Shown: in pieces, positions 45,674-61,145 of the stretch | Layout of the letters: the number at the start of each line of letters is the position of its first letter | Numbering within the stretch: the first letter of the stretch is position 1 | DNA from: Candidatus Sulfotelmatobacter sp. | Lineage (GTDB): Bacteria > Vulcanimicrobiota > Vulcanimicrobiia > Vulcanimicrobiales > Vulcanimicrobiaceae | Reading direction: 5' to 3' | DNA: 64,000 bases | Assembly (NCBI GenBank): GCA_035504415.1 | Contig: DATJRY010000021.1 | Coordinates: 186,001-250,000 of the forward strand | The notes under the pieces: model-generated | Seen by the model: the letters and a program-made list of their open reading frames with translations, nothing else | Told to the model about the DNA's origin: nothing | Database searches by the model: none | Translations under genes and position numbers: made by a program

Positions 45674-46504
45674 ATGCTGTCGGCAAGCTACGTCCGGGCT
45701 CATCACGTCGCGGCCACCACCGGCACACCGTCGCCGCTCTGCCTGAACGGGACGCGCTACGTCGTCACCTTCGACGACGAGTTCTCCTCGTTTCGGCCGT
45801 ACGATCCGGCCACCGGACGCGGCGTGTGGGATACCGCCTACACCTGGGGACGCATGAATCCCGGAGCGCGAGACGCTGCCATGTACGTCGATCCCGGCTT
45901 CGGCGTGCAACACGGCGTTTCGCTCGGCTTGAACCCCTTCTCGGTCTCCGGCGACGGTTTGACGATCACCGCGCGGGTCGCACCGCCGGCCGTCGCCGCG
46001 CTGCCGGGACGACCGGCCTACGTTTCCGGCGTCATCACGACGGCGCACAGCTTCTCGCAGACCTACGGCTACTTCGAGGCGCGCATGCGGCTCTCGCGCG
46101 GTCGCGGACTCTGGCCTTCGTTTTGGATGCTGCCCGTCATCGGCTATCCGCCGGAAATCGACGTCATGGAGATCCTGGGGCAAGAGCCGGCGCGCGTGTA
46201 TCAGACGACCCACGCCGTCGACAAGTCGACGCAGCAGATCGTCTCGACGGAGGCGAACCCGGACGGGTTCCATTCGTACGGCGTGGCCTGGGCGCCGTCG
46301 ACCATCACGTACTACGTCGACGGACGCGTGACCGGCACGGTCGGCAACATCTCCAATCAGCCGATGTATCTGTTGGCGAACTTGCAAGTCGGCGGCGTCG
46401 GAAGCTGGCCGGGAACGCCCGACGCGTCGACGACGTTCCCCACCTCGGCGACGATTCGGTACGTTCGGGGCTACGAAGCCGCGGGCGCTTGTCCCGTCCA
46501 TTGA
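45674..46504 (+). CDS. GH16 family beta-glucanase-like hydrolase
   Basis: A 276-residue GH16 jelly-roll enzyme. The catalytic motif is PPEIDVMEILG with nucleophile Glu161, Asp163 and acid/base Glu166. SQTYGYFEARMRLSRGRGLWPSFWML and FHSYGVAWAPSTITYYVDG frame it. A clean signal peptide is not seen from the ATG 45674. GH16 enzymes cut beta-1,3/1,4-glucans and galactans. Its place at the end of the polysaccharide operon, opposite a second GH16 at the other end, suggests it trims or releases the product. Confidence 0.87.
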   Translation: MLSASYVRAHHVAATTGTPSPLCLNGTRYVVTFDDEFSSFRPYDPATGRGVWDTAYTWGRMNPGARDAAMYVDPGFGVQHGVSLGLNPFSVSGDGLTITARVAPPAVAALPGRPAYVSGVITTAHSFSQTYGYFEARMRLSRGRGLWPSFWMLPVIGYPPEIDVMEILGQEPARVYQTTHAVDKSTQQIVSTEANPDGFHSYGVAWAPSTITYYVDGRVTGTVGNISNQPMYLLANLQVGGVGSWPGTPDASTTFPTSATIRYVRGYEAAGACPVH

Positions 46505-46543: not shown

Positions 46544-47905
46544 TCAGCGAATGCCGGTCGGCCGACGCACCGGAGCCGTCCGCGAGCGCACCAACCCGCC
46601 GGCGCCGATCACGAAGCGCGCCGGCGCCGGCTCCCGCCGCGGCTGCGCGGTGCTGCTGGCCGTCTCCGGCAGCAGCGTGAAGAGGAAGAACGTGAGAAAG
46701 ACGATCCAGTCGAAGTCGTTGTATTTCGCGATGTACGCCTCGCTGATGTTCAACGTGACGAAGAACGCGAGCGCGGCTAGCGGACAGGCGCGATCGAAGG
46801 TGTAGCGGCGCATCACGAACCGCCAGCCCGCGCGGGCGGACTGGCCGAGCACGACGACCATCATCGCCAAACCGACGAGCCCGAGATCGAGCGCGAGCTC
46901 CAGATACCCGTCGTGCGCGTGGAACGGCCGCCAGCCGGACGTTCCCGGATTGAACTGCAAGAACGACCCACCCGGCTCCCAGAACACGTCATAGCCGTAG
47001 CCGACGAGCGGGTGCGCCGCGATCGCCTGCACGACGTGCGTCCAGATCTCGAGCCGCCCGGTGAGCGTCGCATCGCGGCCGAGCAGCGCGAAGACGGGGT
47101 TCTGCGTGCCGTCGGTAGCCAAGGCGGCGCCCGCGACGAGCGCTACGGCCAGCACCACGATGCCGGCGATCAGCGGACGCGCGCGTCGCCGGTTCGCCGC
47201 GAAGGCGACGACCATGGCGACCGCGCAGACGAGCAAGGTCAGGAGCGCCGTCGCCGAGCGCGTGGCGGCGAGCTCGACCAGGCACAGCACTCCACCCGCC
47301 CAGAAGAACGCCGAGGGCGCCCCGCGCCGGCGCCAGGCGGCCATCGCGACGGTGATGATGCCGAAGGCCAGGAAGAGCCCGAGCCGGTTCTTGTGCGCGA
47401 AGATGCCGCGCAGCGCGCCGGCATACTCCAGGTGCATCAAGCCGGCGTCGGGCGAGACGATGACGACGGCCAAGCTCAGCACGGCTGCCGCGATGACGAC
47501 GACGGCGAAGGTATCGATGAAGCTCTCGAGCGTGAAGCGCGACACGATGAAGTACGCGCACGCGGTGGTTCCGACCAATCCGATGGCCCGCCGCGCCGTC
47601 GCTCCGGGATCGTCCGACCACAGCGTCGAGAGGACCGCCAGCGCGACCAGCGCGACGACCAGCCACGACGAACGGATCAGCGCGGCAAGGCCGGCCGAGT
47701 GCCGCGCCAGGCCGACGACGGCGATGACGTAGAGTCCGCCCCAGACGGCTTCGGAGAGCGGGGAGCTCGTCTCGACCAGCGCGCTGAACTCTTGGTCCGG
47801 CGTCGTGATGCGTACGACGAGGATGCCCAGCAAGATGACTGCGAAGACGAACAGGCGATCGAGCAGGGTCGGCTCCGCGGCTAGGCGCGAGGACGATGAC
47901 GTCAT
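46544..47905 (-). CDS. O-antigen ligase / Wzy-like polymerase membrane protein
   Basis: A 453-residue protein with about 10-12 membrane segments. The Wzy_C/ligase hallmark is a long periplasmic loop with GRLEIWTHVVQAIAAHPLVG and HAHDGYLELALDLG, and the AHKNRLGLFLAFG loop earlier in the chain. ATG 47905 is 2 bp past the glycosyltransferase stop. It is the last gene of the minus-strand polysaccharide operon and is the best candidate for the polymerase. Confidence 0.85.
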   Translation of the reverse strand: MTSSSSRLAAEPTLLDRLFVFAVILLGILVVRITTPDQEFSALVETSSPLSEAVWGGLYVIAVVGLARHSAGLAALIRSSWLVVALVALAVLSTLWSDDPGATARRAIGLVGTTACAYFIVSRFTLESFIDTFAVVVIAAAVLSLAVVIVSPDAGLMHLEYAGALRGIFAHKNRLGLFLAFGIITVAMAAWRRRGAPSAFFWAGGVLCLVELAATRSATALLTLLVCAVAMVVAFAANRRRARPLIAGIVVLAVALVAGAALATDGTQNPVFALLGRDATLTGRLEIWTHVVQAIAAHPLVGYGYDVFWEPGGSFLQFNPGTSGWRPFHAHDGYLELALDLGLVGLAMMVVVLGQSARAGWRFVMRRYTFDRACPLAALAFFVTLNISEAYIAKYNDFDWIVFLTFFLFTLLPETASSTAQPRREPAPARFVIGAGGLVRSRTAPVRRPTGIR

Positions 47906-47907
47906 CG

Positions 47908-48855
47908 TCACATTTCCGTTCCGTACCGAAGCGTGCTCGGACGATCGTACTCCAGGAAGAGCACGCCGAACGCGCCGGCGAGCATGCCCGCGCCACGGGC
48001 GAAGTCGACCAGTGCTTCCACCGCGCCGGTGCGGCCGCGAACGGCGAGCCGTACCGGCAGGCTCGCGAGGCCGAACGTCACCCAGAACAGCGCCTTGGCC
48101 ACCCGCATGGCGATCACGCGCGCCGTGCCGAGGATGCGCAGGTCGCAGTACCACAGCGTGTTGCCCCGGCGAAACGCGCGCCGCAGGATGTACGCCGCGC
48201 AAAGCCGGTTCGGCATCACCTGCTCGGTGGCGACGGCGTTCGCCGCGTACACGATCTCGCCGCCGCGCGCCAGCAGCTCGCGGAAGAAAAACTGATCCTC
48301 GCCGCCGGCCGCGTTGAAGGCCGGATCGAAGCCGATCTCGTTGAGCGCCGGCGCACGTAACCGCAAGAGCGCGTTGCCGGTGCAGCCGTCGCGGAGCTGG
48401 GCGCCGTCGTGAAAGCGCGGCATGTCGTAGAAGGCGCCCCGGCGGATCCAGGCGGGAGCGGACGCGGGCACCAGCGCCAGGACCGGGCCGCTGACGGCCG
48501 CGGCATCGGTCAGCGACTGCACGCGCAGGAGCTCCGCGAGCCACTGCGGCTCCGGAATCTCGTCGTCGTCCAGCATCGCGAGAAACGGCGCGCGCGCCCG
48601 TGCGACCGCCAGCGCGGCATTGCGCACGTTGGAGAGGCCGCGCTCGCGCACGACCAGGTATTCGATCGCGAACGGGAGCAGCGCGGCGGCTTCCCGGACG
48701 ACGGCGCGCGCGCTCTCTTCCGGATCGTTATCGAGGACGACGACCGTGACCCGGGCGTGCTCGACGTCGGTCTGATGCCGCAAGGCGGCCAAGGCGCAAC
48801 GCAAGAGCTTCGGCCGCCGGTAGGTCGGGACGACCAGGCACACGTCGGGGGTCAC
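47908..48855 (-). CDS. Glycosyltransferase family 2, tandem copy 2
   Basis: A 315-residue GT-A glycosyltransferase. CLVVPTYRRPKLLRCALAAL opens it, MLDDDEIPEPQWL carries the metal-binding DxD, and GGEDQFFFRELL holds the catalytic-base region. GTG 48855 overlaps the previous gene by 4 bp. It is roughly 60 percent identical to its upstream neighbour by eye. There is no membrane anchor beyond a weak hydrophobic stretch near the end. Confidence 0.88.
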   Translation of the reverse strand: MTPDVCLVVPTYRRPKLLRCALAALRHQTDVEHARVTVVVLDNDPEESARAVVREAAALLPFAIEYLVVRERGLSNVRNAALAVARARAPFLAMLDDDEIPEPQWLAELLRVQSLTDAAAVSGPVLALVPASAPAWIRRGAFYDMPRFHDGAQLRDGCTGNALLRLRAPALNEIGFDPAFNAAGGEDQFFFRELLARGGEIVYAANAVATEQVMPNRLCAAYILRRAFRRGNTLWYCDLRILGTARVIAMRVAKALFWVTFGLASLPVRLAVRGRTGAVEALVDFARGAGMLAGAFGVLFLEYDRPSTLRYGTEM

Positions 48856-49808
48856 GAAGCGACTTCCGCGCCGTACTTGATCGTGCTGGCCTGATCGTAC
48901 TCCTGGAACACGACGCCGAAGAGGCCCGCGAAGGCTCCGAGCCCGCGCGCGACGTCGACCATCGCCTCCACCGCGCCGGTCTTGCCGCGCACGATCGCTC
49001 GCGGTACGAACGTGACCAGACCCAAGCCGATCCGGCCGGCCGCCTTGCACAGCCGCAGGGCGATCACGCCGGCCGTTCCGTGGATCCGCAGGTCGCAGTA
49101 CCAGAGCGTGTTGCCGCGCCGGAAGGCGCGCCGCAAGATGTATGTCACGCACAGCCGCTGCGGCAGGACGTACTCGGGCGCGATCGCGTTGGCCGCGTAC
49201 GCGACCCGCCCCCCGCGCGCGAGAAGCTGCCGGAAGAAGAATTGATCGCTTCCGCCCGCGTTGGCGAAGGCAGTGTCGAAGTGCAGCCCGTCGATGGCCG
49301 GCGAGGCGAGCCAGAACACACCGTTCCCGGTGCAGCCGTCGTCGAGGAGCTGTCCGTCGGCGAAGGTCGGGATGTCGTAGAATGCGCCGCGACGGATCCA
49401 CGCCGGCGCGCCGGCCGGGACGAGTCGCGGCACCGGACCGATCACCGCCGCCGCGCCGGTCTGGGCTTGGACACGCATCAGCTCCGCCAGCCATTGCGGT
49501 TCGGGCACCTCGTCGTCGTCCAACATGATCAAGAACGGCGCTCGCTCGCGGCCGATCGCGAGCGCCGCGTTGCGGACGTTCACGATTCCCGGTCGCGGGC
49601 AGACGGCGTAGTCGACGGGGAACGGCATCGTGCTCCCGATCTCCTCGACGAGGGCGCGAGCGCTTTCCTCCGGATCGTTGTCGAGCACGACGACGCCCAC
49701 CCGTTCGAGCGCGATTCCGGTCTGACGGCCCAGGCTCGCCATGACCGTACGCAGGAGGCGCGGCCGTTTATAGGTGGTCACGATCAGGCAGATGTCAGGG
49801 GTATTCAT
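48852..49808 (-). CDS. Glycosyltransferase family 2, tandem copy 1
   Basis: A 318-residue paralogue of the downstream gene. CLIVTTYKRPRLLRTVMASL, MLDDDEVPEPQWL and GGSDQFFFRQLL correspond to its motifs, but Ser replaces Glu in the GGED position, so the two may have different acceptors. ATG 49808 overlaps the GT4 stop by 4 bp. Confidence 0.88.
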   Translation of the reverse strand: MNTPDICLIVTTYKRPRLLRTVMASLGRQTGIALERVGVVVLDNDPEESARALVEEIGSTMPFPVDYAVCPRPGIVNVRNAALAIGRERAPFLIMLDDDEVPEPQWLAELMRVQAQTGAAAVIGPVPRLVPAGAPAWIRRGAFYDIPTFADGQLLDDGCTGNGVFWLASPAIDGLHFDTAFANAGGSDQFFFRQLLARGGRVAYAANAIAPEYVLPQRLCVTYILRRAFRRGNTLWYCDLRIHGTAGVIALRLCKAAGRIGLGLVTFVPRAIVRGKTGAVEAMVDVARGLGAFAGLFGVVFQEYDQASTIKYGAEVAS

Positions 49809-51112
49809 CGGCTCATCGCTATCACGCTTTGCTCGCTTGTGGTGTGCGTCGTGCGAGTGGACTCGAGATCATCGGCGATCGCAGCCTCGAGCGGCGCGAA
49901 GACGCGGGCGGTGCTGAAGCGCGGCGCGGCGCCACGCGCGGCCCGGACCATTCGGGCGTGCTCCTCGTCGTCGGTCAGCATCCTGGCCACCGCGTCGGCG
50001 AACTCGCCCGGCTCGTTCGCGACCGCAAAGGGCGCAGGCTGAATGTCGAGCAGTCCTTGCGCGCCGATCGACGTCGTCACCATCGGTACGCCATAGGCCA
50101 TCGCCTCCACCACCTTCAGCTTGAGCCCGCTGCCGGCGAGAAGCGGGGCGATGGCGACCGTCGCGCCGGAGAAGATCTCCGTCAGCTCATGGCTGAATCC
50201 CATCAGGGTCACGTTCTCCGGGACGCTGTCGAGGCGCAAGCAGATCGTCCCGTAGATCTCGAGGTGAGCGTGTGGAACGCGCGCGCGGATCTGTTCCCAG
50301 CACGACTCGAAGAACCAGCGAATGCCGTCGACGTTGGGCAGCGTCCCGCTCGCGACGAACACGCAGCGGCCGGGACGACGCGGTGCGCTCACACGCTGGT
50401 CCACGTCGATCGCCATCGGCAGCTCCACCACCCGCGCCGAGGGCACGAAGCGGCGAAACGTCTGTGCGTCCTCGCGCTGGATCGCGATCAGGTTTCGCGC
50501 GGCGGAGAGCACCTCTCGCTCCGTCTCGGCGCAGAAACCCGCCGGCCGAACCTCGAAACCGCGATCGCGAAGCGATTCGGCGCGCTGAATCTTCACGTCG
50601 TGGGTGATGACCCAGCCACTGCGCGCTCGGACGCCTTCACAATAGTTGAAGATCGAGTCGTACAGGATGACGTCCGGCTGGGCGCGTCGGGTGTACTCGC
50701 GCACGAAACGGCGCTCGCGCGGCGAGAGGAACGTTCCGAGCACATGCGAGAAGCCGCGAGCGCGCCGCAACGACGTCCGGGCTCGTTCGATTGCGGCGCG
50801 CAGCGGCTTGGGCAGCACGTCGAACACGCGATAGGCGAACGTCGTCGCGACGGCGACGGGCGAGCAGAGCACCGAATATCTCCCGACGCGGCGCAGGGCC
50901 GGAGAGACGAGCCGGTACGGCAAGCGCGCATCGGTGAGGACGACGGTGGTGATTCGCGGACGCAGCAGCAGCCAGGTAACGTGCCAGCCGCGCGCCGCGA
51001 AGCGCGCCACGATCGTCTTGACGTAGGTCGAAAGTCCGGACCGTTCGAGCGCGATCTGGTAGTCGGGCAAGAAGTCGCTCACGATCACGAGCTCACGCGG
51101 ACGCACGCTCAC
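49805..51112 (-). CDS. Glycosyltransferase family 4-like protein
   Basis: A 435-residue GT-B enzyme. ELVIVSDFLPDYQIALERSG opens the N-terminal lobe; the nucleotide-sugar site has FVASGTLPNVDGIRWF and SGLKLKVVEAMAYGVPMV (the E-x7-E region). GTG 51112 overlaps the preceding stop by 4 bp (GTGA). The sugar donor is unknown. Confidence 0.87.
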   Translation of the reverse strand: MSVRPRELVIVSDFLPDYQIALERSGLSTYVKTIVARFAARGWHVTWLLLRPRITTVVLTDARLPYRLVSPALRRVGRYSVLCSPVAVATTFAYRVFDVLPKPLRAAIERARTSLRRARGFSHVLGTFLSPRERRFVREYTRRAQPDVILYDSIFNYCEGVRARSGWVITHDVKIQRAESLRDRGFEVRPAGFCAETEREVLSAARNLIAIQREDAQTFRRFVPSARVVELPMAIDVDQRVSAPRRPGRCVFVASGTLPNVDGIRWFFESCWEQIRARVPHAHLEIYGTICLRLDSVPENVTLMGFSHELTEIFSGATVAIAPLLAGSGLKLKVVEAMAYGVPMVTTSIGAQGLLDIQPAPFAVANEPGEFADAVARMLTDDEEHARMVRAARGAAPRFSTARVFAPLEAAIADDLESTRTTHTTSEQSVIAMSR

Positions 51113-51906
51113 CGCACCCGTTCCTCGCGACGCCGGGCACGCAAGATCATCCCGGCGACGAGCCAGGGTTCGACCAGGTAGCGGCGCCAGAACCGGGCCG
51201 GGTCGGCCGCGAAACGGAAGAGCCACTCGATCCCCAGGCGCCCCATCCAGCGGGGCGGCGTCGGCGTCGTGCCGGCGACGTATTCCAAGCACGCCCCCAC
51301 CGTGAAGAAGCACGCCGGCGCCACGGTGTGCCGGTGGCTGAGGATCCAGCGCTCCTGTCGTCCCATCCCCATGCCGACGAGCACCACGTGCGGCCGGTAC
51401 TCGGCCAGTCGGCGGGCCACGTCCGCACCGGCCTCGTCCCCTGGATCGAAGTAGCCGCAGACGCCGTCGACCTCCAGACCGGGCACGCGCGAGCGAACTG
51501 CCGCCAGGCCCAGGCGCTGCACCGTGGCCGTGCCGCCGATCCAGAACACGCGCCAACGCAGCGTCGCCGCGAGATGCAGCAAGGGCCAGATGACGTCCAG
51601 GACCGTTACGCGGTGATCGCGTCGGGCCGGCACGCCGGCCAGGCGGCACAGTCCGACGATCGGCATCCCGTCGATGTGCACGTACGTCTCGGGCAGCCCG
51701 TGCAGCGTGCGAAAGGCGAGGTCGTCCTGCAGGACGCGCAGGCCGTGCAGATTCTGCGAGGCCACGATACACTGCTCGCTCGCCTCGACGTGCGCGCGAA
51801 CGATCTCGAGCAAGTCGTGTGCGGTCGTCGGCGTGATGCGCGCGCCGAAGACGTCGTATGAGGGAAACCGGCGCGAGAGATAGGCCGACGCCGTGTCGAC
51901 GGTCAT
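51109..51906 (-). CDS. WecG/TagA/CpsF-family glycosyltransferase
   Basis: A 265-residue lipid-linked-sugar glycosyltransferase. HIDGMPIVGLCRLAG has the conserved Asp, WRVFWIGGTATVQRLG the nucleotide loop, VLVGMGMGRQERWI the family hallmark, and VGACLEYVAGTTPTPPRWM the end. ATG 51906 overlaps the flippase stop by 4 bp. It probably adds the second sugar to the undecaprenyl-linked primer. Confidence 0.92.
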   Translation of the reverse strand: MTVDTASAYLSRRFPSYDVFGARITPTTAHDLLEIVRAHVEASEQCIVASQNLHGLRVLQDDLAFRTLHGLPETYVHIDGMPIVGLCRLAGVPARRDHRVTVLDVIWPLLHLAATLRWRVFWIGGTATVQRLGLAAVRSRVPGLEVDGVCGYFDPGDEAGADVARRLAEYRPHVVLVGMGMGRQERWILSHRHTVAPACFFTVGACLEYVAGTTPTPPRWMGRLGIEWLFRFAADPARFWRRYLVEPWLVAGMILRARRREERVR

Positions 51907-53342
51907 GTCTCGAGCGACCCGTTGGCGCGAGCGCTGACGGCGTGCCCGAGCACGGCATGCGGGGTGCGCGCGGCGATCGCATAGCAGCCGCCGTATGCCA
52001 GAACGGCGGCGGTGCACGCGAGCGCGAGCCAGGGGAGGCCGACGTGGACCGGGATCAGCAGCAAGACGGCAACCATGCCGAACGTCGCCACGCCGGCCTG
52101 GACCCACCCCGCGGCGCCGAAGGGGAGCGGGAAGAAGCGCCGTCCCCATGCCGCGCTCAAGCCGATACCGAGCGCGTTCGCGATCAGCGACGACCCGGCG
52201 GCACCGTACGCGCCGTAGCGCGGAATCAGCGCCAGGCTGCAGACGATCCCCGCGGCCGTCGCCGCCACGCTGATGAGCGCGGCCGGGCGCGTGCGCCGCG
52301 AGAGCTCGAACGCCTGATCGAAGTAGAACGTGCGCAAGCCGTAGAGTGCCGTCGCGACGGCGGCGAGCGCGATGATGGTCTCGGCCCCGTTCTGGAAATG
52401 GCGACCGAAGAAGGTGTGCGCGATCGGCCCCGCCAGGACGACCAGGCCGGCCACGGCCGGAATCGCCAAGCCGAGCATCAGCCGCACGTTTTGCCGCAGC
52501 TGCGCGCGCGCCGCCTCGGCGCCGTCCGTGTCGAGCAACCGCATCGCGAGCGGCTGCCCGGCAAGCGCAGTCGCCGAAATCAGCAAGTACACGGACTGGC
52601 GAGAGAAGTCGAACGCCACCGAATAGATTCCGACCGCCGCGGTTCCGGCCGTCACCCCGAGCAGAAGCCGGTCGAAGGTCACGTTGAGCTGAGCGAGGAC
52701 CCCGGTCGCGGTGATCGGCCAGCCGAAGTGCGCGAGCCGGTGAAACAGCTCGCGGTCGAACCGTCCGCTCATCGCGGGCGCCCATTGCCCGACGGCGAGC
52801 AACGCGCTGGCGTTTCCCAGCGTGAAGCCGAGCAGCAGGCCTTCGCCTTTCAGACCCATCGCGATGCAGCACAACGAGACGACGACGGTGGTGAAGGCGC
52901 GCGTCACGCTGAGGGCGCCGTACGCGCCGACCGCGCGCTTCGCCTGAAGCACGGTGATCGTCAGCTCGAACCATCCGTTGGCGATCGTGGCCGCAACGGT
53001 CAGCGCGATCGCGGTCGTCGAGAACCGCCCCCACGCCGCGAGTGCGGCGACCTCGACGAGCGCGAGCACCAGCGCGGTCCCGGCGAACGACACCAGCACC
53101 GTCCGGGCCAGAGCCGGATCCATGACGAGCGTGCTGCCGAGCGTGCGCAGCATCGCGACGCGCACCCAATAGAATGCGACCGCGGCGAACAGAGCGATGC
53201 TGGCGAGCAGGGCATAGAGACCGACCGCGCCCGGTTCGAGCAGTCGCGTGTACAGTGAAACGGCGAGCACGGTGACGAGCGCGGGAAGAATCCGGCCCGC
53301 GAAGTAACCGCCGAAATGGCGAACGACCGGTGGAAGCCTCAC
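51903..53342 (-). CDS. Wzx-type polysaccharide flippase
   Basis: A 479-residue MOP-superfamily exporter with about 12-14 membrane segments (for example LVTVLAVSLYTRLLEPGAVG, then LVVLAGPIAHTFFG). GTG 53342 inside the epimerase stop (GTGA) is preferred; 18 in-frame codons lie upstream. It should flip the lipid-linked repeat unit to the periplasm. Confidence 0.88.
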   Translation of the reverse strand: MRLPPVVRHFGGYFAGRILPALVTVLAVSLYTRLLEPGAVGLYALLASIALFAAVAFYWVRVAMLRTLGSTLVMDPALARTVLVSFAGTALVLALVEVAALAAWGRFSTTAIALTVAATIANGWFELTITVLQAKRAVGAYGALSVTRAFTTVVVSLCCIAMGLKGEGLLLGFTLGNASALLAVGQWAPAMSGRFDRELFHRLAHFGWPITATGVLAQLNVTFDRLLLGVTAGTAAVGIYSVAFDFSRQSVYLLISATALAGQPLAMRLLDTDGAEAARAQLRQNVRLMLGLAIPAVAGLVVLAGPIAHTFFGRHFQNGAETIIALAAVATALYGLRTFYFDQAFELSRRTRPAALISVAATAAGIVCSLALIPRYGAYGAAGSSLIANALGIGLSAAWGRRFFPLPFGAAGWVQAGVATFGMVAVLLLIPVHVGLPWLALACTAAVLAYGGCYAIAARTPHAVLGHAVSARANGSLET

Positions 53343-54154
53343 GGCGAGGCTCCGGCGGCGAGCGAAACGCTCGCCGCTTCCAGCCCGCGAAACCACGCCA
53401 GTGTTTCGGCGAGCGAGCTCTCGAGCTGACCGGCGTCGGCCGCCGCCGGCGGCACCTGGTGGGTCGCGAGCGGAACGCTCGCGGGGTTTGCGGGCCGCGT
53501 CCGCATCGCGATCCCGGCGACCAGTGAGAGGGTAGCGGCAAACTCGGCCGTCGTGACGACGGCATCGGCTTCACGGAGATTGGCGGCATGCCGCTTGCCG
53601 GCCTCGACCCACTCGACGAGGTCGTGCGCGATGCGGCGCGACGAACTGACCTCGAGCGGGACTCCCTCGATGCCGCGAATCGGCAGCGGTTCCCCGGCGG
53701 CGCAGGCCGCGAACAGCTCGTAGACGAGCGCCGATGGCCGGCGGCGCATGCGCGGCCCGTACGCGATGCCGCGGCAGATCAACGCGTTCTCGGACTGCGC
53801 GCTCGCGGTGCGGGCTTCCATGCCCGGCGGCGACTCGCGTATACGCCGCAACGCGACGACGGGCACGGCCAGCTCGGCGCCGATACGCGTGCTCGTCGCG
53901 GGCGCATCGGCGAGGTCGAAGACGACCTTCGCTCGCGCGTGCAGCACCTCCAACGCCTGCCTCACCTGCGCGAGCGACGCGGGCGAGTTCCAGAACGCGA
54001 AGGCTCCGCGCCCCGATTGGATGGCGGTCGCGGTGTTCGTCAGCGATCCCGACTGTAGCGTGTCGACGATGACCACGGGCTGGCGGCGCGCGATGAGCAC
54101 CTCGACCAACGCGCTTCCGAGAAACCCCGCTCCACCGACGACGATCGAGGCCAT
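53339..54154 (-). CDS. NAD-dependent epimerase/dehydratase-like protein lacking the YxxxK site
   Basis: A 271-residue extended SDR relative. The NAD loop GGAGFLGS is intact at residues 7-14 and a late CRGIAYGPRM matches the RxxNxYGP strand. The middle part, where SSxxvYG and YxxxK should be, is missing: VPVVALRRIRESPPGME runs almost straight into the late strand. The protein is about 50 residues shorter than usual and should not epimerise sugars. It is coupled to the flippase by GTGA and follows the BY-kinase-like gene. Confidence 0.72.
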   Translation of the reverse strand: MASIVVGGAGFLGSALVEVLIARRQPVVIVDTLQSGSLTNTATAIQSGRGAFAFWNSPASLAQVRQALEVLHARAKVVFDLADAPATSTRIGAELAVPVVALRRIRESPPGMEARTASAQSENALICRGIAYGPRMRRRPSALVYELFAACAAGEPLPIRGIEGVPLEVSSSRRIAHDLVEWVEAGKRHAANLREADAVVTTAEFAATLSLVAGIAMRTRPANPASVPLATHQVPPAAADAGQLESSLAETLAWFRGLEAASVSLAAGASP

Positions 54155-54164
54155 GTGCCGCCGC

Positions 54165-54731
54165 TCAGCGCTCCAGGACGAGTCTGTGCGAGTCGGTCGA
54201 CGATGGCACCGTCTCACCGTGCACGACGCGCAGCGATCCGCGGCCCGGGGTGACGATATCGACGCCTTGCGCGCCCTCCGCCGCCAGCTCGGCCAGGCGC
54301 CGCGGCTCGGCGGCGACGACGCCCAGGACGCGCGCACCGAAGCGCGAGAGGGCGGGCACGACGTCCCGATCCGCACGGCGCACCCGCCGCCCCATTCCGA
54401 CGACCAGGATCACGCCGTCCACGATCCGAGCGGCATCGAGCGCGACGCTGCTCTCCAAGATGCGCGCCGTCTCGATGACGCACACGTCGTATTCGGCCTT
54501 CAGCTCCGCGAGGCGCAGTCCGAGCGCGACCGCCGGGCGCTGCTCGCCGGCGTCCAGGCGCAGCAACGCCGTCGTACGTCCGGCGGCGGCGAACGCGTTT
54601 GCCAGCCCCAACCCCAACCCCGAGCCGTCGTCGTCGTCGGTCGAGGCGACGAGGATCATGGTCGGGGCACCGACTTCGGCCTCGATGGCGACCCGCAGAA
54701 TCCGGAGTTGCTCGTCCAGAGAAATTGCCAT
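54165..54731 (-). CDS. BY-kinase-like P-loop protein with degenerate Walker motifs
   Basis: A 188-residue protein in the position of the CpsD/Wzc tyrosine kinase. The N-terminal EQLRILRVAIEAEV and the pattern ILVAST...GLGLANAFAAAGRTTALLRLD follow BY-kinases, but the Walker A GEGKST is DDGSGL with Ser37 for Lys. The Walker A' region is also gone, and the Walker B IIDTPP reads VIETAR. There is no Tyr cluster at the C-terminus. It is probably non-kinase. It lies 15 bp after the Wzz/GumC-like gene. Confidence 0.7.
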   Translation of the reverse strand: MAISLDEQLRILRVAIEAEVGAPTMILVASTDDDDGSGLGLGLANAFAAAGRTTALLRLDAGEQRPAVALGLRLAELKAEYDVCVIETARILESSVALDAARIVDGVILVVGMGRRVRRADRDVVPALSRFGARVLGVVAAEPRRLAELAAEGAQGVDIVTPGRGSLRVVHGETVPSSTDSHRLVLER

Positions 54732-54746
54732 GACGATCGCCTCCCT

Positions 54747-56135
54747 TCAGCTCAGCGTCGCGACGACCGGCGCGCCGTAGACGGTCTCGACGATCGTGAC
54801 CGACCACATGCGATACTCGCGCCGGTCCAGCCAGAGGATCATCGCGAAGGCGATGCACAGGGACAGGAGCAGCGCCAGGGCGATCCGCACGGGCAGCACC
54901 GTGTAGAAGACCGGCTTGCCGTAGGGGGCGCGGTCGAGCACGCTGACGGAGCCGATGGAGCCCGCTTGCGCCTGGTCGGCCCGCGCTTCGGCCAGACGCG
55001 AGGAGAGCACGCCGTACGCCGACGTCTGCACGTCGCGTTCGCGTTGCAGATCGTCGAATCGCGACGCCAGCGTCTTGCCGGTGTTCAGCTCGGCTTGCGT
55101 CTCGCGCAGTACTTGATTCAGCCCTTGCAGCTTCGCGGCGTCACCCGCCGCGACCGATTGCGCACGGGTCGCCTCGCCGAGCGCCGCGGCGTAGCCCGTG
55201 TCGAGCGCGGGGGGTTTCTGTTGCAGGATGGCGCGCCGGCCCTGTACCGCGCTGCGCTCGCCAGCCACGGTGTGACGAAGCTCCGGCAAGCCGGGATATG
55301 CGTCCGAGTACTGCGACTGCACGGCCGCGAGGCGCGCGAAATCGCGCCCGAACTGATCGACGACGTCACGATACGCCGGATCGCTCTCGGTGATCTCGCG
55401 GCGCGCGGCCAACTCGGCTTCCGCCGGCCGCCGGTTCGTCACCGAGGCGGCCGCGGCTTCTCCCTTCGCGACCGCCTCGACCTCGGCTCGCTCTTCGGCG
55501 AGCGTTTGGTACTGGGCGCTCAACGAGTGCGCATCGTCGTGCGCGGCCAAATACGGCGCGGCGGCGGTGAGACGCTGGATCTCGGTATCGACCCGGTTGA
55601 TGCGCGCGCGACGGGCCTCGACTTGTTGCTGCAAATCCGCCGTGAGCACGCGGAACCGCGCCGTCGCGCGGTCGTGGTAGAAGCGCGTCATCTCGTCGGC
55701 GACGGCGTTCGCGCCGGCGGCACTGTCCGCCGACGAGAGCCCGGTGAAGCGGATCACGACGATCGCTCCCGGTGAGAGCGCGATCGCCCCGGCCGGCGGC
55801 GCCGACAGGTTCGCCTTGATATGGTGCATGAGGCGCAGCAGGGCGTGCGGGTCCTGGCCCCACCCGATGTCGCGCGCCACGTTCGTGAGCACGGTCGGCG
55901 TCGTGGCGAGATACGGCAAGTCGGCCGAGAGGATCGGCTTGGTCGAGGACGTGGCGTCGGCCGGCGTGTCGTGGTCGCCGCCGGCCGCCATCAGCACCGA
56001 CGACTGGGCGGCATACTCGGTGGGAACGACGAGCACGGCGAGCGCGTCGAGCACCAGCGCCGCGACGAGGAACGCCACCGCGAACGGACGCCGGCGCCGA
56101 ACGAGAACGTCTTTGACCTGAGCGAGCCGCATCAT
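54747..56135 (-). CDS. Wzz/GumC-like polysaccharide co-polymerase
   Basis: A 462-residue inner-membrane chain-length protein. Membrane segments are at about 20-38 (AVAFLVAALVLDALAVLVV) and near 417-437. A long coiled-coil lies between, with VLTADLQQQVEARRARINRV and LASRFDDLQRERDVQTSAY. No kinase domain is fused. Its start overlaps the sugar transferase stop (TGATG). It is expected to act with the Wza-like export protein. Confidence 0.86.
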   Translation of the reverse strand: MMRLAQVKDVLVRRRRPFAVAFLVAALVLDALAVLVVPTEYAAQSSVLMAAGGDHDTPADATSSTKPILSADLPYLATTPTVLTNVARDIGWGQDPHALLRLMHHIKANLSAPPAGAIALSPGAIVVIRFTGLSSADSAAGANAVADEMTRFYHDRATARFRVLTADLQQQVEARRARINRVDTEIQRLTAAAPYLAAHDDAHSLSAQYQTLAEERAEVEAVAKGEAAAASVTNRRPAEAELAARREITESDPAYRDVVDQFGRDFARLAAVQSQYSDAYPGLPELRHTVAGERSAVQGRRAILQQKPPALDTGYAAALGEATRAQSVAAGDAAKLQGLNQVLRETQAELNTGKTLASRFDDLQRERDVQTSAYGVLSSRLAEARADQAQAGSIGSVSVLDRAPYGKPVFYTVLPVRIALALLLSLCIAFAMILWLDRREYRMWSVTIVETVYGAPVVATLS

Positions 56136-56827
56136 CAGTGCGCTCCTTGGCCGTTCACGACGACCCGCACGGTCTCGAGCAAGATCTTCAGGTCGGTCGA
56201 CGCCGATGCGCGGCGAATGTACTCGAGGTCCAGCAGCGTCGCTTCCGGGCGGTGCAGCGGGACCTTCGAGCGGCACGTCACCTGCCAAAGCCCGGTGAGG
56301 CCGGGCGCGGCGAGATGCCGCAAGTGCTGCCACGGCGCGTACTCGCGCACGATGAAGGGCATCTCCGGGCGCGGCCCGATCAGCGTCATGTCGCCGCGAA
56401 TCACGTTGATCAGCTGAGGCAGCTCGTCGATCGAGGTCTTACGCAAGACGCGCCCGACGCGAGTGATCCGTGCGTCGCTCGAAGTCGACGGCGTGAACTC
56501 GTCGCCGCACATGTCGACGCGCATGGTTCTCAGCTTGTACATCGCGAAGAGGCGTTCGAAGCGTCCGACGCGGTGCTGAACGAACAGGGCCGGCCCGCGA
56601 TCCTCCGCAAGGATCGCGAGGATCGCGAGCAGGAGCAGCGGCGCGGTGACGACCAGCACGACGGTCGCGACGAAAACGTCCAGCATGCGACGTGCGACGC
56701 GTGCCGAGCGCCGGCTGCCGTAGACGAAGCTGATGTGCGGGACGTCGTCGTCCCGCTCCGGCACGACGCCGATGTGGTGATCGGACCGAACGGTTGGGAC
56801 GGAAACGGTCTGGCGGCGCATGATCAT
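56135..56827 (-). CDS. Undecaprenyl-phosphate sugar phosphotransferase (initiating enzyme)
   Basis: A 230-residue bacterial sugar transferase (WbaP/ExoY-type core). A membrane segment lies at about 47-75 (LDVFVATVVLVVTAPLLLLA). KLRTMRVDM, RKTSIDELPQLINVIRGDMT and LIGPRPEMPF are the hallmarks. It loads the first sugar phosphate onto the lipid carrier. ATG 56827 overlaps the Wza-like stop by 4 bp. Confidence 0.93.
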   Translation of the reverse strand: MIMRRQTVSVPTVRSDHHIGVVPERDDDVPHISFVYGSRRSARVARRMLDVFVATVVLVVTAPLLLLAILAILAEDRGPALFVQHRVGRFERLFAMYKLRTMRVDMCGDEFTPSTSSDARITRVGRVLRKTSIDELPQLINVIRGDMTLIGPRPEMPFIVREYAPWQHLRHLAAPGLTGLWQVTCRSKVPLHRPEATLLDLEYIRRASASTDLKILLETVRVVVNGQGAH

Positions 56828-57969
56828 GGGAACAGGATCCAGCGCAGCGTGGAAGCCAGCGAGGCGAGGATCGTGTTGTCGATCCGCTTTCCGTGCGGTA
56901 CGTAGACCTGATCGCCGTCGGCCAATCGAGGGTTCGCGGACATGTCGCCGCGCGCGACGAGCGTCACGTCGTACATCTCGACGACGCCGTCGTGCACGAC
57001 ATGGACGTGCCCGAGGTCGCCGTCCTTGTCCGGGCCGCCGGCGCTGAAGACGGCCGCCAGCAGCGAGACGTCGCTCTTGAGCGTGACCGTTCCGGGATGC
57101 AGTACGATCCCGGCGACGGTCACTTGCGGCGCCGTTTGAACGACGAGCACGTCGCCGTTCACGGCCGGCTCGCGAAACGCCGGGTCGGCGATCGAGATCG
57201 ACGTGTCGGTTCCGTTTCGCCGGAGGATGATGCCGGCCGTCCGCGCGGCGTCGGTCAATCCGTAGACTTGATCGATCGCGTCGGAAAGCGGCTCGTCGGG
57301 AGCCAAGTGCGCGAACCCCGGCTGGCGCACCGCACCGCTCACCTGCACCGCGATGGGCTTGTCATGGAACAGCACCGCGTCGCCGGGTCGCAACTGCGGA
57401 CCGGACTCGCCCGCCGCGGCCAGAGCGACCATGTCGTACGTGCCGAGCAGCGCACCGTCGCGTTCCACTCGCACCGCGCGCATGTCGATCTGCGAGTGGT
57501 ACGGGTCGAACGCCGGCGGTGCGTTCTGCGCGACCAGCTCCGGCGTCTGCCCCGTCATCCGAATCGCGTCGATGGCGCCCGCCAAGGTCTGACCCGGGTA
57601 GTACTTCGCGACGCCGTCATTGAGCGGGAAGGGCCAGCCCGCGATCGTGATCGACGATCCTTCGCTCTGGCGCTGGACTTCGACCGCGGCGAACGGGAGG
57701 TACGGCCGAAGGCGAGCGCTGATCCGGCGGGCCGCGTTCGCCGGCGTATCGCCGGCCACGTGAACGATGCCCGCCATCACCAGGATGATGTTGCCGGTAC
57801 TGTCGACGACGTGGGTTCCCGACAGCTCCGGATGGTTGTAGACGTTGACGTAGACCTGATCCCCGACGTGGACCGGGGCATCGGCGGCGAGGACGCCGAG
57901 CGGAATGGCTGCGAGGGAGACGGACGCCACCGCCGCGAGCAGCGTCCGCGCAAGCCGAAAGGAGTACAT
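56824..57969 (-). CDS. Wza-like polysaccharide export protein with SLBB domains
   Basis: A 381-residue outer-membrane export protein. A signal peptide (LLAAVASVSLAAIPLGVLA) ends near residue 28. The Poly_export domain begins APVHVGDQVYVNVYNHPEL, and SLBB-like beta-grasp repeats follow (VSGAVRQPGFAHLAPDEPLS, then TVAGIVLHPGTVTLKSDVS). No lipobox Cys is seen, unlike E. coli Wza. ATG 57969 has GAGAGGA upstream. Confidence 0.88.
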   Translation of the reverse strand: MYSFRLARTLLAAVASVSLAAIPLGVLAADAPVHVGDQVYVNVYNHPELSGTHVVDSTGNIILVMAGIVHVAGDTPANAARRISARLRPYLPFAAVEVQRQSEGSSITIAGWPFPLNDGVAKYYPGQTLAGAIDAIRMTGQTPELVAQNAPPAFDPYHSQIDMRAVRVERDGALLGTYDMVALAAAGESGPQLRPGDAVLFHDKPIAVQVSGAVRQPGFAHLAPDEPLSDAIDQVYGLTDAARTAGIILRRNGTDTSISIADPAFREPAVNGDVLVVQTAPQVTVAGIVLHPGTVTLKSDVSLLAAVFSAGGPDKDGDLGHVHVVHDGVVEMYDVTLVARGDMSANPRLADGDQVYVPHGKRIDNTILASLASTLRWILFP

Positions 57970-57977
57970 GTTCCTCT

Positions 57978-59540
57978 CTATTGATAGACGTGGACGTAGT
58001 CGACGAGCATGGTCGCCGGGAAGGACGTGCTCGCGTTCGGTGCGCCCGGGAAGTCGCCGCCGACGGCCAGGTTGAGAACGAGGTAGAACGGCTGGTTGAA
58101 GACCCACGTCCCGCCGGTCGGAATCGTGGACGGTGTCACCGTCGCGTACAGCGCGTTGTCGAAGTAGTAGCCGATGCTGCTGGCGGTCCAGAGCACGCCG
58201 TAGCTGTGGAAGCCCTGCGAGAGCACGACGTTGGGCACGGTGTACTCCACCGTCAGCGGACCGGTCGTGTCGAAGCCGGGGCCGTGCAGCGCGCCGAACA
58301 CCGTCGAGGGATCCGAGCCGATGATCTCCATCGGGTCGATCTCACCCTCGTTGGCGCCGGACGGCGTCGTCATCCAGAACGCGGGCCACAGGCCCTGCCC
58401 CGCCGGCACCTGGATGCGTGCCTCGAAGTACCCGTACGTCTGGGAGAACAGGCCGCGAGTCGTCAACCGCGCCGAGACGTATTGACACGGGCCGTACGAG
58501 CAGGTGGCATTGAACGGATTGCCGGCGTTCGCCGTGATCACCAGGTGCCCGTTGCCGTCCTGTTCCGCGTACTGCGGCGCGTAGTTCGGCGCGCTCGGGT
58601 TGGTGACGTTCGCGTAGTACTCGAGCTCCTGATTCTCGGACCACGGCCCGGTGTCGTCGGTCCACTTGGTGGTGTCGACCGGAGCGTTGGCCGCGCCCGT
58701 GAACTCGTCGTCGAAGACCAGCGTCATCCCGCTCGACGGTGATTGCGGCGGCGGGGGTGACTGGGTGGGGACGGACGTCGGCGCGATGCTCGGCGCCGGG
58801 GTCGGCGCGCCGACGGATTGCGGGATCGCGATCGCCGCGAACCAGTATTGGACGTCCGGCGCGAACGAGAACGCGCTGCTGCCGCCGGTGAAGTTCAGGG
58901 TCGTTCCCGACACGGTGGCCGGGCCCTCGAAGCCGTACTGCCACCCGAGCGATGGGCGAGTCGGGTCGTACAGGGCCAGATAGTACGACGCACCCGACAC
59001 GATGTCGGCCTGCGGAACGACGAGCGAGAAGCCGGGCGTGGTCAGGAACGTGATCGGTGAGGCCCAGTAGAGGGCCAGGTACACGAGCGGCACGGCGTTG
59101 CCGGTCGCCTGCGTCCGTCGAATCGCTTGCGCCGCGCGCTTGAGGTCGAGCACGGGAATCGATGCGGGAGCCGTGTCCTGCAGCGTCGCCGTGATGCTTT
59201 CGGTCCCCGGCGACTGTGCGGGGGGCATTTGAAGCGTCGCGGCGGTTCCTGTCCCGTTGTTCGCGAGCGAGACCGGCACGGGAGCGGCGGTCGGCTGGCC
59301 CGACGGCGGCGCGGTCGCGATCGGCACGCCGACCTGCTGTTGCGTCACCGAATACGGCGAGGCGCTCGGAATCGGCAACGACGTCGGCGTCGCCGTCGCG
59401 GTGGGTGCCGTGGTCGGAGTCGCGCCCGAGTGCGGCGCGACGCCGACCCCGCCGCCGCCGCAAGCGGCGAGCGCCGAGGCGACGACGAGCCCGAAGCCCA
59501 GCGCGCCGATTTTCCACGCGTTCATCGATTTTGTCTGCAC
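57978..59540 (-). CDS. Secreted GH16 lipoprotein hydrolase
   Basis: A 520-residue protein from GTG 59540, chosen because GGGAGGG lies just upstream; ATG 59525 is an alternative. The lipobox VASALAAC is followed by GGGG and a Thr/Pro linker. A beta-sandwich-like domain spans about 95-245, then a Pro linker, then a GH16 domain (about 270-520). The catalytic motif is GEIDPMEIIG with Glu400, Asp402 and Glu405. It heads the polysaccharide operon, and the Wza-like gene follows at 8 bp. Confidence 0.87.
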   Translation of the reverse strand: MQTKSMNAWKIGALGFGLVVASALAACGGGGVGVAPHSGATPTTAPTATATPTSLPIPSASPYSVTQQQVGVPIATAPPSGQPTAAPVPVSLANNGTGTAATLQMPPAQSPGTESITATLQDTAPASIPVLDLKRAAQAIRRTQATGNAVPLVYLALYWASPITFLTTPGFSLVVPQADIVSGASYYLALYDPTRPSLGWQYGFEGPATVSGTTLNFTGGSSAFSFAPDVQYWFAAIAIPQSVGAPTPAPSIAPTSVPTQSPPPPQSPSSGMTLVFDDEFTGAANAPVDTTKWTDDTGPWSENQELEYYANVTNPSAPNYAPQYAEQDGNGHLVITANAGNPFNATCSYGPCQYVSARLTTRGLFSQTYGYFEARIQVPAGQGLWPAFWMTTPSGANEGEIDPMEIIGSDPSTVFGALHGPGFDTTGPLTVEYTVPNVVLSQGFHSYGVLWTASSIGYYFDNALYATVTPSTIPTGGTWVFNQPFYLVLNLAVGGDFPGAPNASTSFPATMLVDYVHVYQ

Positions 59541-59593
59541 GGTCCCTCCCGCTGCCGGTCGGCTGAACAACGACAAGCACCGAGTGCAAATGC

Positions 59594-59613
59594 TGCACCT
59601 CGATGCACCTCGA
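59594..59613. repeat. Tandem 10-bp repeat upstream of the GH16 lipoprotein
   Basis: TGCACCTCGA occurs twice in tandem (59594-59603 and 59604-59613), 54 bp upstream of the GH16 start. One DNA turn per copy makes it a possible binding site. Confidence 0.5.
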
Positions 59614-59647
59614 CCCGCAGGTGTGGAGCCATCGTAGGTCATCGTCC

Positions 59648-59816: not shown

Positions 59817-61145
59817 TTGATCGATAGCGTGGAGTTCGGCCTCTCCACTCGCGGGTCGCGCCTGCGAGATCGAATCCACGACCGCACGGCGCGTATCGCC
59901 GTCGTCGGTATCGGGCGTATCGGCCTGCCGGTCGCGTTGGAGAGAGCGCGCATCGGCTACAGCGTGGTGGGAATCGATCTCGACGAGGCGCGCGTCGACG
60001 CGCTCAACGCCGGCGTGACCTATTACGATGACGTCGATGCCGGCGAGCTCGCCCAGGCCGTCGCGAAAGGTGCGCTGCGCGCGTCATCCGACTTCGCGGA
60101 GCTCGGGCGCTGCGACGTGGTAGAAATCTGCGTCCCGAGCGCGCTCACGGCGAACAAAGATCCGGATCTCTCGCGGCTGCGCAGCGTCGGTGAGGCGATC
60201 ACGCTGCAGCTGCGGTCGGGGCAGCTCATCACGCTCGAGTGCACGGCGTACCCCGGGACGACCGAAGAGGTGCTGCTGCCCATCTTGGCACGCTCCGGGC
60301 TCATCGTCGGCGAGGAGTACTTTCTCGCCTTCGCGGCCGAGTGCGAGGACCGGCAGTGCGCGCCGCCCGGCGCGAAGATCGTCGCGGGGGCGACGCCTCG
60401 CTGTCGGGAGATCGCCCAGATTTTCTACGGCCAGACCGGCCAGCGCGTCTTCACGGTCAGCTCGCCGCGGGTCGCCGAGATGGCGAAGATCTTCGCGAGC
60501 ACGTTCCGCGCGGTCAACGGTGCGCTGGTCAACGAGCTGGCGTTGCTCTGCGACCGCATGGGGATCGACGTCTGGGAAGTCGTCGACGGCGCGAGCCGTC
60601 CGTTCGGCATCACGCGCTTCGACCCGAACCCGGGTGCCGGCGGACGCTTCGCGGCGTTCGATCCGTTCTATCTGGCTTGGAAAGCGCGCCAGTTCGATTT
60701 CACGACCCGTTTCATCGAGCTCGCCGGCGAGATCAACGTGCGCATGCCGTACTTCGTGGTGGAGAAGCTGGGCCGTATCCTCAACGAGCGCGGCAGGTCA
60801 CTCCGGTATGCCGACGTGGTCGTCATCGGCGTCGCCAACGCGCGCGACGGGGCCGACTGGCACGGCTCGCCGGCGGTCAAGGTGATCGAGCTGCTCGAAC
60901 GGGCCGGCGCGGCGGTGACGTACCACGATCCGCACGTGGCGTCGTTCGTCGACGAGCGCGGGAAGTTCCGTCGCAGCATCCCGTTGGACGACGCGCAGCT
61001 CGGCGCGGCGGACTGCACCGTGATCCTGACGGATCACAGCGACATCGCGTGGGAACGGGTCGTCGAGTCGAGCACCGCGGTGCTCGACGCGCGCAACGCG
61101 ACCGCCGGCGTCGCGACGAACCGTCACAAGATCGTTCGTCTGTAG
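59817..61145 (+). CDS. UDP-sugar dehydrogenase-like protein lacking the catalytic Cys
   Basis: A 442-residue protein of the UDP-glucose/UDP-N-acetyl-sugar 6-dehydrogenase family (WbpA/TviB-like). The NAD loop VVGIGRIGLPVALERARIG, the YPGTTEEVLLPIL strand and AEMAKIFASTFRAVNGALVNE are all normal. The active-site loop that should read GGHCIPxDP reads GGRFAAFDP (275-283), with Phe278 in place of the catalytic Cys. TTG 59817 is set by GGGAGG 9 bases upstream. It should not perform the second oxidation. It is divergent from the polysaccharide operon. Confidence 0.85.
   Translation: MIDSVEFGLSTRGSRLRDRIHDRTARIAVVGIGRIGLPVALERARIGYSVVGIDLDEARVDALNAGVTYYDDVDAGELAQAVAKGALRASSDFAELGRCDVVEICVPSALTANKDPDLSRLRSVGEAITLQLRSGQLITLECTAYPGTTEEVLLPILARSGLIVGEEYFLAFAAECEDRQCAPPGAKIVAGATPRCREIAQIFYGQTGQRVFTVSSPRVAEMAKIFASTFRAVNGALVNELALLCDRMGIDVWEVVDGASRPFGITRFDPNPGAGGRFAAFDPFYLAWKARQFDFTTRFIELAGEINVRMPYFVVEKLGRILNERGRSLRYADVVVIGVANARDGADWHGSPAVKVIELLERAGAAVTYHDPHVASFVDERGKFRRSIPLDDAQLGAADCTVILTDHSDIAWERVVESSTAVLDARNATAGVATNRHKIVRL

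Follow-up and report, generated by a model that had tools for sequence, protein, structure and literature searches.

The window (the whole 64,000-nucleotide stretch analysed here) carries a run of genes on one strand in the order OPX-PGT-PCP-ByP-SDR-Wzx-WecG-GT-GT-GT-Wzy, and relatives have a similar order. Read from the reverse strand, these encode an OPX outer-membrane export protein (Poly_export, SLBB; 56824-57993), a phosphoglycosyl transferase (PGT; Bac_transf, E 1.3e-57; 56135-56827), an unfused, PCP-2 like polysaccharide co-polymerase of 462 aa (PCP; 54747-56135), a BY-kinase-fold pseudokinase of 188 aa that we refer to as ByP (54165-54731), an SDR/epimerase-like protein (53339-54157), a Wzx-like flippase (Polysacc_synt_3; 51903-53396), a WecG/TagA glycosyltransferase (51109-51861), a family 1 glycosyltransferase (49805-51100), two family 2 glycosyltransferases (48852-49808 and 47908-48870) and a Wzy polymerase-like protein (Wzy_C, E 1.4e-21; 46544-47905). 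The gene set, from OPX through to Wzy, therefore makes up a complete Wzx/Wzy export operon. Near each of its ends lies a flanking family 16 glycosyl hydrolase (45674-46504 (+) and 57978-59642 (-)). In most relatives the genes of the sugar transferase and the PCP are separated by one for a UDP-sugar dehydrogenase; there is none between PGT and PCP in the window, where such a gene is instead found on the opposite strand, beyond the operon (59817-61145 (+)).

The product of 54747-56135 is a PCP that lacks a kinase domain, as its profile matches, its model matches and the position of its C-terminus indicate. While the match to Pfam GNVR (E 8e-5) falls under the cut-off, the PCP family profile reaches PslE (1e-16) and also Wzc. 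The predicted structure has the two TM helices and coiled-coil periplasmic part of a Wzc-like PCP-2 and matches Wzc and WzzE, with the chain ending 22 residues past TM2 in a short helix followed by PVVATLS. This cytosolic tail (residues 441-462; 54750-54815 (-)) is the predicted docking site of ByP. Across 15 PCP tails, a Tyr-Gly pair is invariant, and an Arg and a Glu nearly so.

The first-pass annotation had described 54165-54731 as a BY-kinase paralogue directly after a PCP without a fused kinase, lacking the Walker A Lys, the Walker B Asp and a terminal Tyr cluster. The operon position, the reading frame, its coordinates and the motif changes are all borne out. At the P-loop, where active BY-kinases carry the Walker A motif G-x-G-K-[ST], sequence and alignment place DDDDGSGL in ByP as opposed to G[DE]GK[ST] (residues 32-39; 54615-54638 (-)), with four Asp in a row and no Lys. 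The Walker A' segment assigned by alignment, LRLDAG (residues 57-62; 54546-54563 (-)), has Arg at the Asp position 58. At the Walker B segment, where the Asp of BY-kinases precedes [ST]PP or a comparable sequence, ByP reads VIETAR (residues 85-90; 54462-54479 (-)), with Glu replacing Asp at 87. The protein contains a single Tyr, which lies outside the last 50 residues. Judged from these residues, nucleotide binding by the ByP loop is very unlikely, because four consecutive Asp and no Lys occupy the segment that would hold the phosphates.

The homology of ByP to BY-kinases is real, being weak but clear at the sequence level. A Pfam search of ByP gave no match, and NCBIfam TIGR01007 matches it with E 2.3e-6 and 27.3 bits, below the curated cut-off of 108.05. 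The sequence on its own matches VpsO at E 0.0011, and the family profile does so at 3e-14; in the profile search CapAB comes next (4e-13), with Etk and MinD/ParA proteins further down. The AlphaFold model (pLDDT 77, pTM 0.74) has a disordered stretch over the last 28 residues, and a Foldseek comparison with the PDB places Wzc and VpsO first; CapAB and Etk also appear within the top 50. Model, Foldseek and profile thus agree on a BY-kinase fold, although this is retained only in part: the Walker A' to Walker B stretch is shortened to 30 residues, compared with 77-86 in the intact BY-kinases examined, so the earlier statement that the outer fold is kept needs this restriction. A BY-kinase fold, the loss of all three Walker-type motifs together with the Tyr tail, and a partner PCP-2 without a kinase domain are features that ByP shares with BY pseudokinases of the EcpK/HfsB kind.

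A second, intact BY-kinase that could pair with the operon was looked for in the genome of origin (4.17 Mb, 21 contigs, 95.7% complete). With TIGR01007, no intact BY-kinase, and no other BY-kinase homologue than ByP, was found in this assembly. The term paralogue is therefore wrong, ByP being the only copy. The remaining TIGR01007 matches include two MinD-like proteins, a ParA and an Mrp, each of which has an intact P-loop and no connection with export; two further matches are weak and of SRP-type GTPase character. Models for LMW-PTP (Wzb-type) and CpsB/CapC phosphatases found nothing in the genome, although 11 of the 14 genomes used as controls have an LMW-PTP match above the cut-off. Since the Wzz Pfam model also gave nothing in this genome, a profile of the PCP itself was used, which found a single PCP and no second one.

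Motif loss and conserved residues in a clade of homologues

A contig scan with the single protein gave no match. A profile built from the members themselves yielded a clade of 19 stand-alone BY-kinase homologues, from 14 genomes and 10 genera of the little-studied phylum Candidatus Eremiobacterota (NCBI now Vulcanimicrobiota); a three-sequence alignment supplied outgroups. In a tree computed with the P-loop, Walker A' and Walker B columns excluded, the 19 proteins form one side of a branch with support 100/99, opposite 13 intact BY-kinases from the same and other phyla. The P-loop reads GDGK[ST] in three members (L072, L073 and L076), DDGK[ST] in two (L068 and L069) and DGKE in three copies from a single genome (G029), and the Lys is absent from its place in 11/19, the window protein included. 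At least five changes between Lys and no Lys are required on the tree, which leaves the base of the clade unresolved. The clade thus comprises intermediates from kinase-like to dead forms in one operon context. Genome G029 holds five clade members (L065 6658-8578, L063 9542-10354), two of them in tandem, and no PCP was detected alongside its DGKE-loop trio. The EX2RX2R ring motif was considered as an argument and dropped, because it is not conserved across the clade: ByP has it in full, as do no more than three relatives (L071, L072 and L073).

The complete P-loop of L072, L073 and L076 means that nucleotide use has not been lost clade-wide. The retention of GDGK[ST] in some members, and the reach of the family profile to ParA and MinD proteins, would fit a ByP that binds nucleotide non-canonically and switches as an atypical MinD/ParA-type protein to position the exporter. 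We regard this as barely credible, since BY-kinases rank first by both sequence and fold, the ByP loop is Asp-rich and has no Lys in place of the deviant Walker A KGGxGK[ST] of MinD/ParA proteins, and the Asp residues of Walker A' and Walker B are lost and replaced, respectively.

Comparison of the clade with intact BY-kinases points to a different set of conserved positions. E17 (54681-54683 (-)) and D121 (54369-54371 (-)) are fixed in 19/19 members, and R115 (54387-54389 (-)) in all 18 that have letters at this position, although collecting the clade set with a profile made from the members tends to select sequences with residues of this kind; all three positions are variable in intact BY-kinases. 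Conversely, G34, K37, D58, D87 and V110, fixed in intact BY-kinases, are variable in the clade. G36, also fixed in intact BY-kinases, is kept in 18/19 clade members, and D35 throughout. Constraint has switched from the catalytic residues to the three new ones.

The gene adjoining ByP is degenerate as well. The SDR (53339-54157 (-)) lacks the YxxxK active-site stretch, which makes it a second pseudoenzyme. The stretch TSTSEIYG...YDEGKR is lost in the window and in genome G021 (L075 5570-6382 (-)), and kept in the 8 aligned relatives. The two broken SDRs sit on long branches (5.2 and 1.7, where the median is 0.26) and fall in separate parts of the tree. The window genome and G021 also have the shortest pseudokinase cores.

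With ByP itself on a long branch (1.67), and the adjoining SDR broken and on an extreme branch, the pair could be seen as relics of an abandoned system, kinase and SDR drifting together. Several observations make such decay highly improbable. The ByP frame is open, with a codon-position GC (0.78/0.50/0.87) like that of its neighbours, and among positions conserved in the other 18 members it keeps 12/15, compared with a background of 34% (p 4e-4). For the closely related Lys-less pair G019/G046, dN/dS is 0.13 (0.15 for their PCP), a value indicative of purifying selection; for the P-loop-intact pair G084/G086 it is 0.29 (PCP 0.11). On the basis of the 0.13 value, Lys-less forms are maintained genes, at least in the pair G019/G046.

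Pairing with the co-polymerase and proposed role

An unfused PCP lies directly beside the clade member in 16/19 cases, often in the order OPX-PGT-UGD-PCP-ByP-SDR. The reverse comparison started from PCPs in 121 genomes of the phylum, each at least 80% complete. Fifteen unfused PCPs score at 275 bits or more; all other hits score at most 156 bits, and nearly all of these are fused Wzc-type proteins. A pseudokinase adjoins 14/15 of the high-scoring unfused PCPs. The exception is found in genome G007 (L094 2248-3777), where an SDR, a normal-looking epimerase, takes the place of the pseudokinase. The tail of this PCP ends in SPYGRSALS and has lost the usual IExLYGxPVIATL pattern, so that the single available case lacks both the tail pattern and the pseudokinase. 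Three genomes (G000, G019 and G021) have the pseudokinase pair only, with no fused Wzc found. In a mirror-tree test the PCP did not stand out as the partner of ByP: the distance-matrix correlation with ByP is 0.54 for PCP, 0.54 for OPX and 0.63 for PGT. Co-inheritance of the locus therefore suffices to account for the correlation, without specific coevolution.

The window pair matches the arrangement of EcpK and EpsV from Myxococcus xanthus in the features that can be tested, and it is on this ground that we read ByP as a BY pseudokinase docking on the PCP tail. ByP is probably (at roughly 70%) a phosphorylation-free scaffold of the unfused PCP-2 in a Wzx/Wzy exopolysaccharide exporter. It would descend from a stand-alone BY-kinase and would no longer perform ATP binding or phosphorylation. 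The Rossmann-like core may dock on the 22-residue cytosolic tail of the PCP, and this docking could stabilise or assemble a putative PCP ring by binding alone. PCP assembly might then be controlled by binding and release of ByP; alternatively, ByP may simply hold the PCP. The stepwise loss in the relatives likewise suggests an exporter run by protein binding as opposed to phosphorylation.

A more restricted role, in which ByP acts only as a chaperone or stabiliser of the PCP with no cycle of assembly and disassembly, has a precedent in HfsB, which stabilises and is important for the stability of HfsA, as cited in PMC12004946. It would also fit that no kinase, no Wzb/CpsB-type phosphatase and no Tyr tail that could drive a cycle were found. 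However, stabilisation by itself leaves the fixed D35, G36, R115 and D121, in or near the old nucleotide loops, unexplained, and we consider it unlikely as the sole function. A scaffold role thus remains our preferred reading. The first-pass annotation had likewise proposed a kinase-dead subunit and export regulated by binding; this proposal is supported in part and is the best-supported reading, with putative direct binding, a predicted loss of ATP use and a presumed regulation; the idea is not a new one.

Comparison with known systems

For a phosphorylation-free scaffold mechanism there are published precedents in EcpK/EpsV and HfsB/HfsA (PMC12004946). EcpK binds EpsV directly, a model places the EpsV tail in a groove of EcpK, and a scaffold role without phosphorylation has been proposed for the M. 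xanthus pair (PMC12004946). Like ByP, EcpK is a stand-alone BY-kinase fold without Walker A, A' or B motifs or a Tyr tail; EpsV resembles the window PCP in being a PCP-2 that belongs to a Wzx/Wzy pathway, lacks a kinase domain and has a short cytosolic tail (22-25 residues). The two systems differ in phylum and in gene arrangement, the EcpK gene (MXAN_7447) not being adjacent to epsV (MXAN_7421), whereas the ByP gene lies directly beside that of its PCP. In addition, the C-terminus of EcpK is a Lys/Arg-rich helix, and that of ByP is predicted to be disordered. HfsB/HfsA of Caulobacter crescentus, as cited in PMC12004946, likewise combines a stand-alone BY pseudokinase with a kinase-less PCP-2, but serves holdfast export, unlike the window operon.

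CapA/CapB of Staphylococcus aureus, a PCP-2b with a stand-alone BY-kinase, shows the same split into a membrane modulator and a cytosolic BY-fold protein, with the modulator tail forming a helix-strand unit on the kinase (PMC3795738). CapB2 differs from ByP in being active, with both the P-loop Lys and the Tyr cluster present. In CapA1 the adenine is stacked by Phe221; the end of the window PCP tail, GAPVVATLS, has no aromatic residue. Wzc of Escherichia coli is the best structural match of both ByP and the PCP, yet it is fused, catalytically active and cycles with the phosphatase Wzb. In the model drawn from Wzc and CapAB, the kinase domains assemble below the PCP into a ring, which is dismantled when the tails become phosphorylated (PMC8285477, PMC3795738). 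Wzc K540M, which is without the P-loop Lys, still forms octamers (PMC8285477).

A literature search found no paper on an operon of this type in Eremiobacterota. The present analysis adds an example from a new phylum, together with a series from kinase-like to dead forms, a switch in constraint and an adjoining second pseudoenzyme. We tentatively propose that, within one phylum, a BY-kinase clade lost catalysis repeatedly and stepwise (GDGK[ST], DDGK[ST], DGKE, no Lys) while fixing E17-R115-D121, and that the adjoining SDR also became a pseudoenzyme in the most reduced operons. Given the repeated stepwise loss and the new residue set, phosphorylation-free export would, on this proposal, have arisen independently of the EcpK and HfsB lineages. 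EcpK and HfsB raise the question of how a PCP ring is controlled without a tyrosine-phosphorylation cycle; to this the clade contributes intermediates in one operon context, and it singles out E17, R115 and D121, together with the 22-residue PCP tail.
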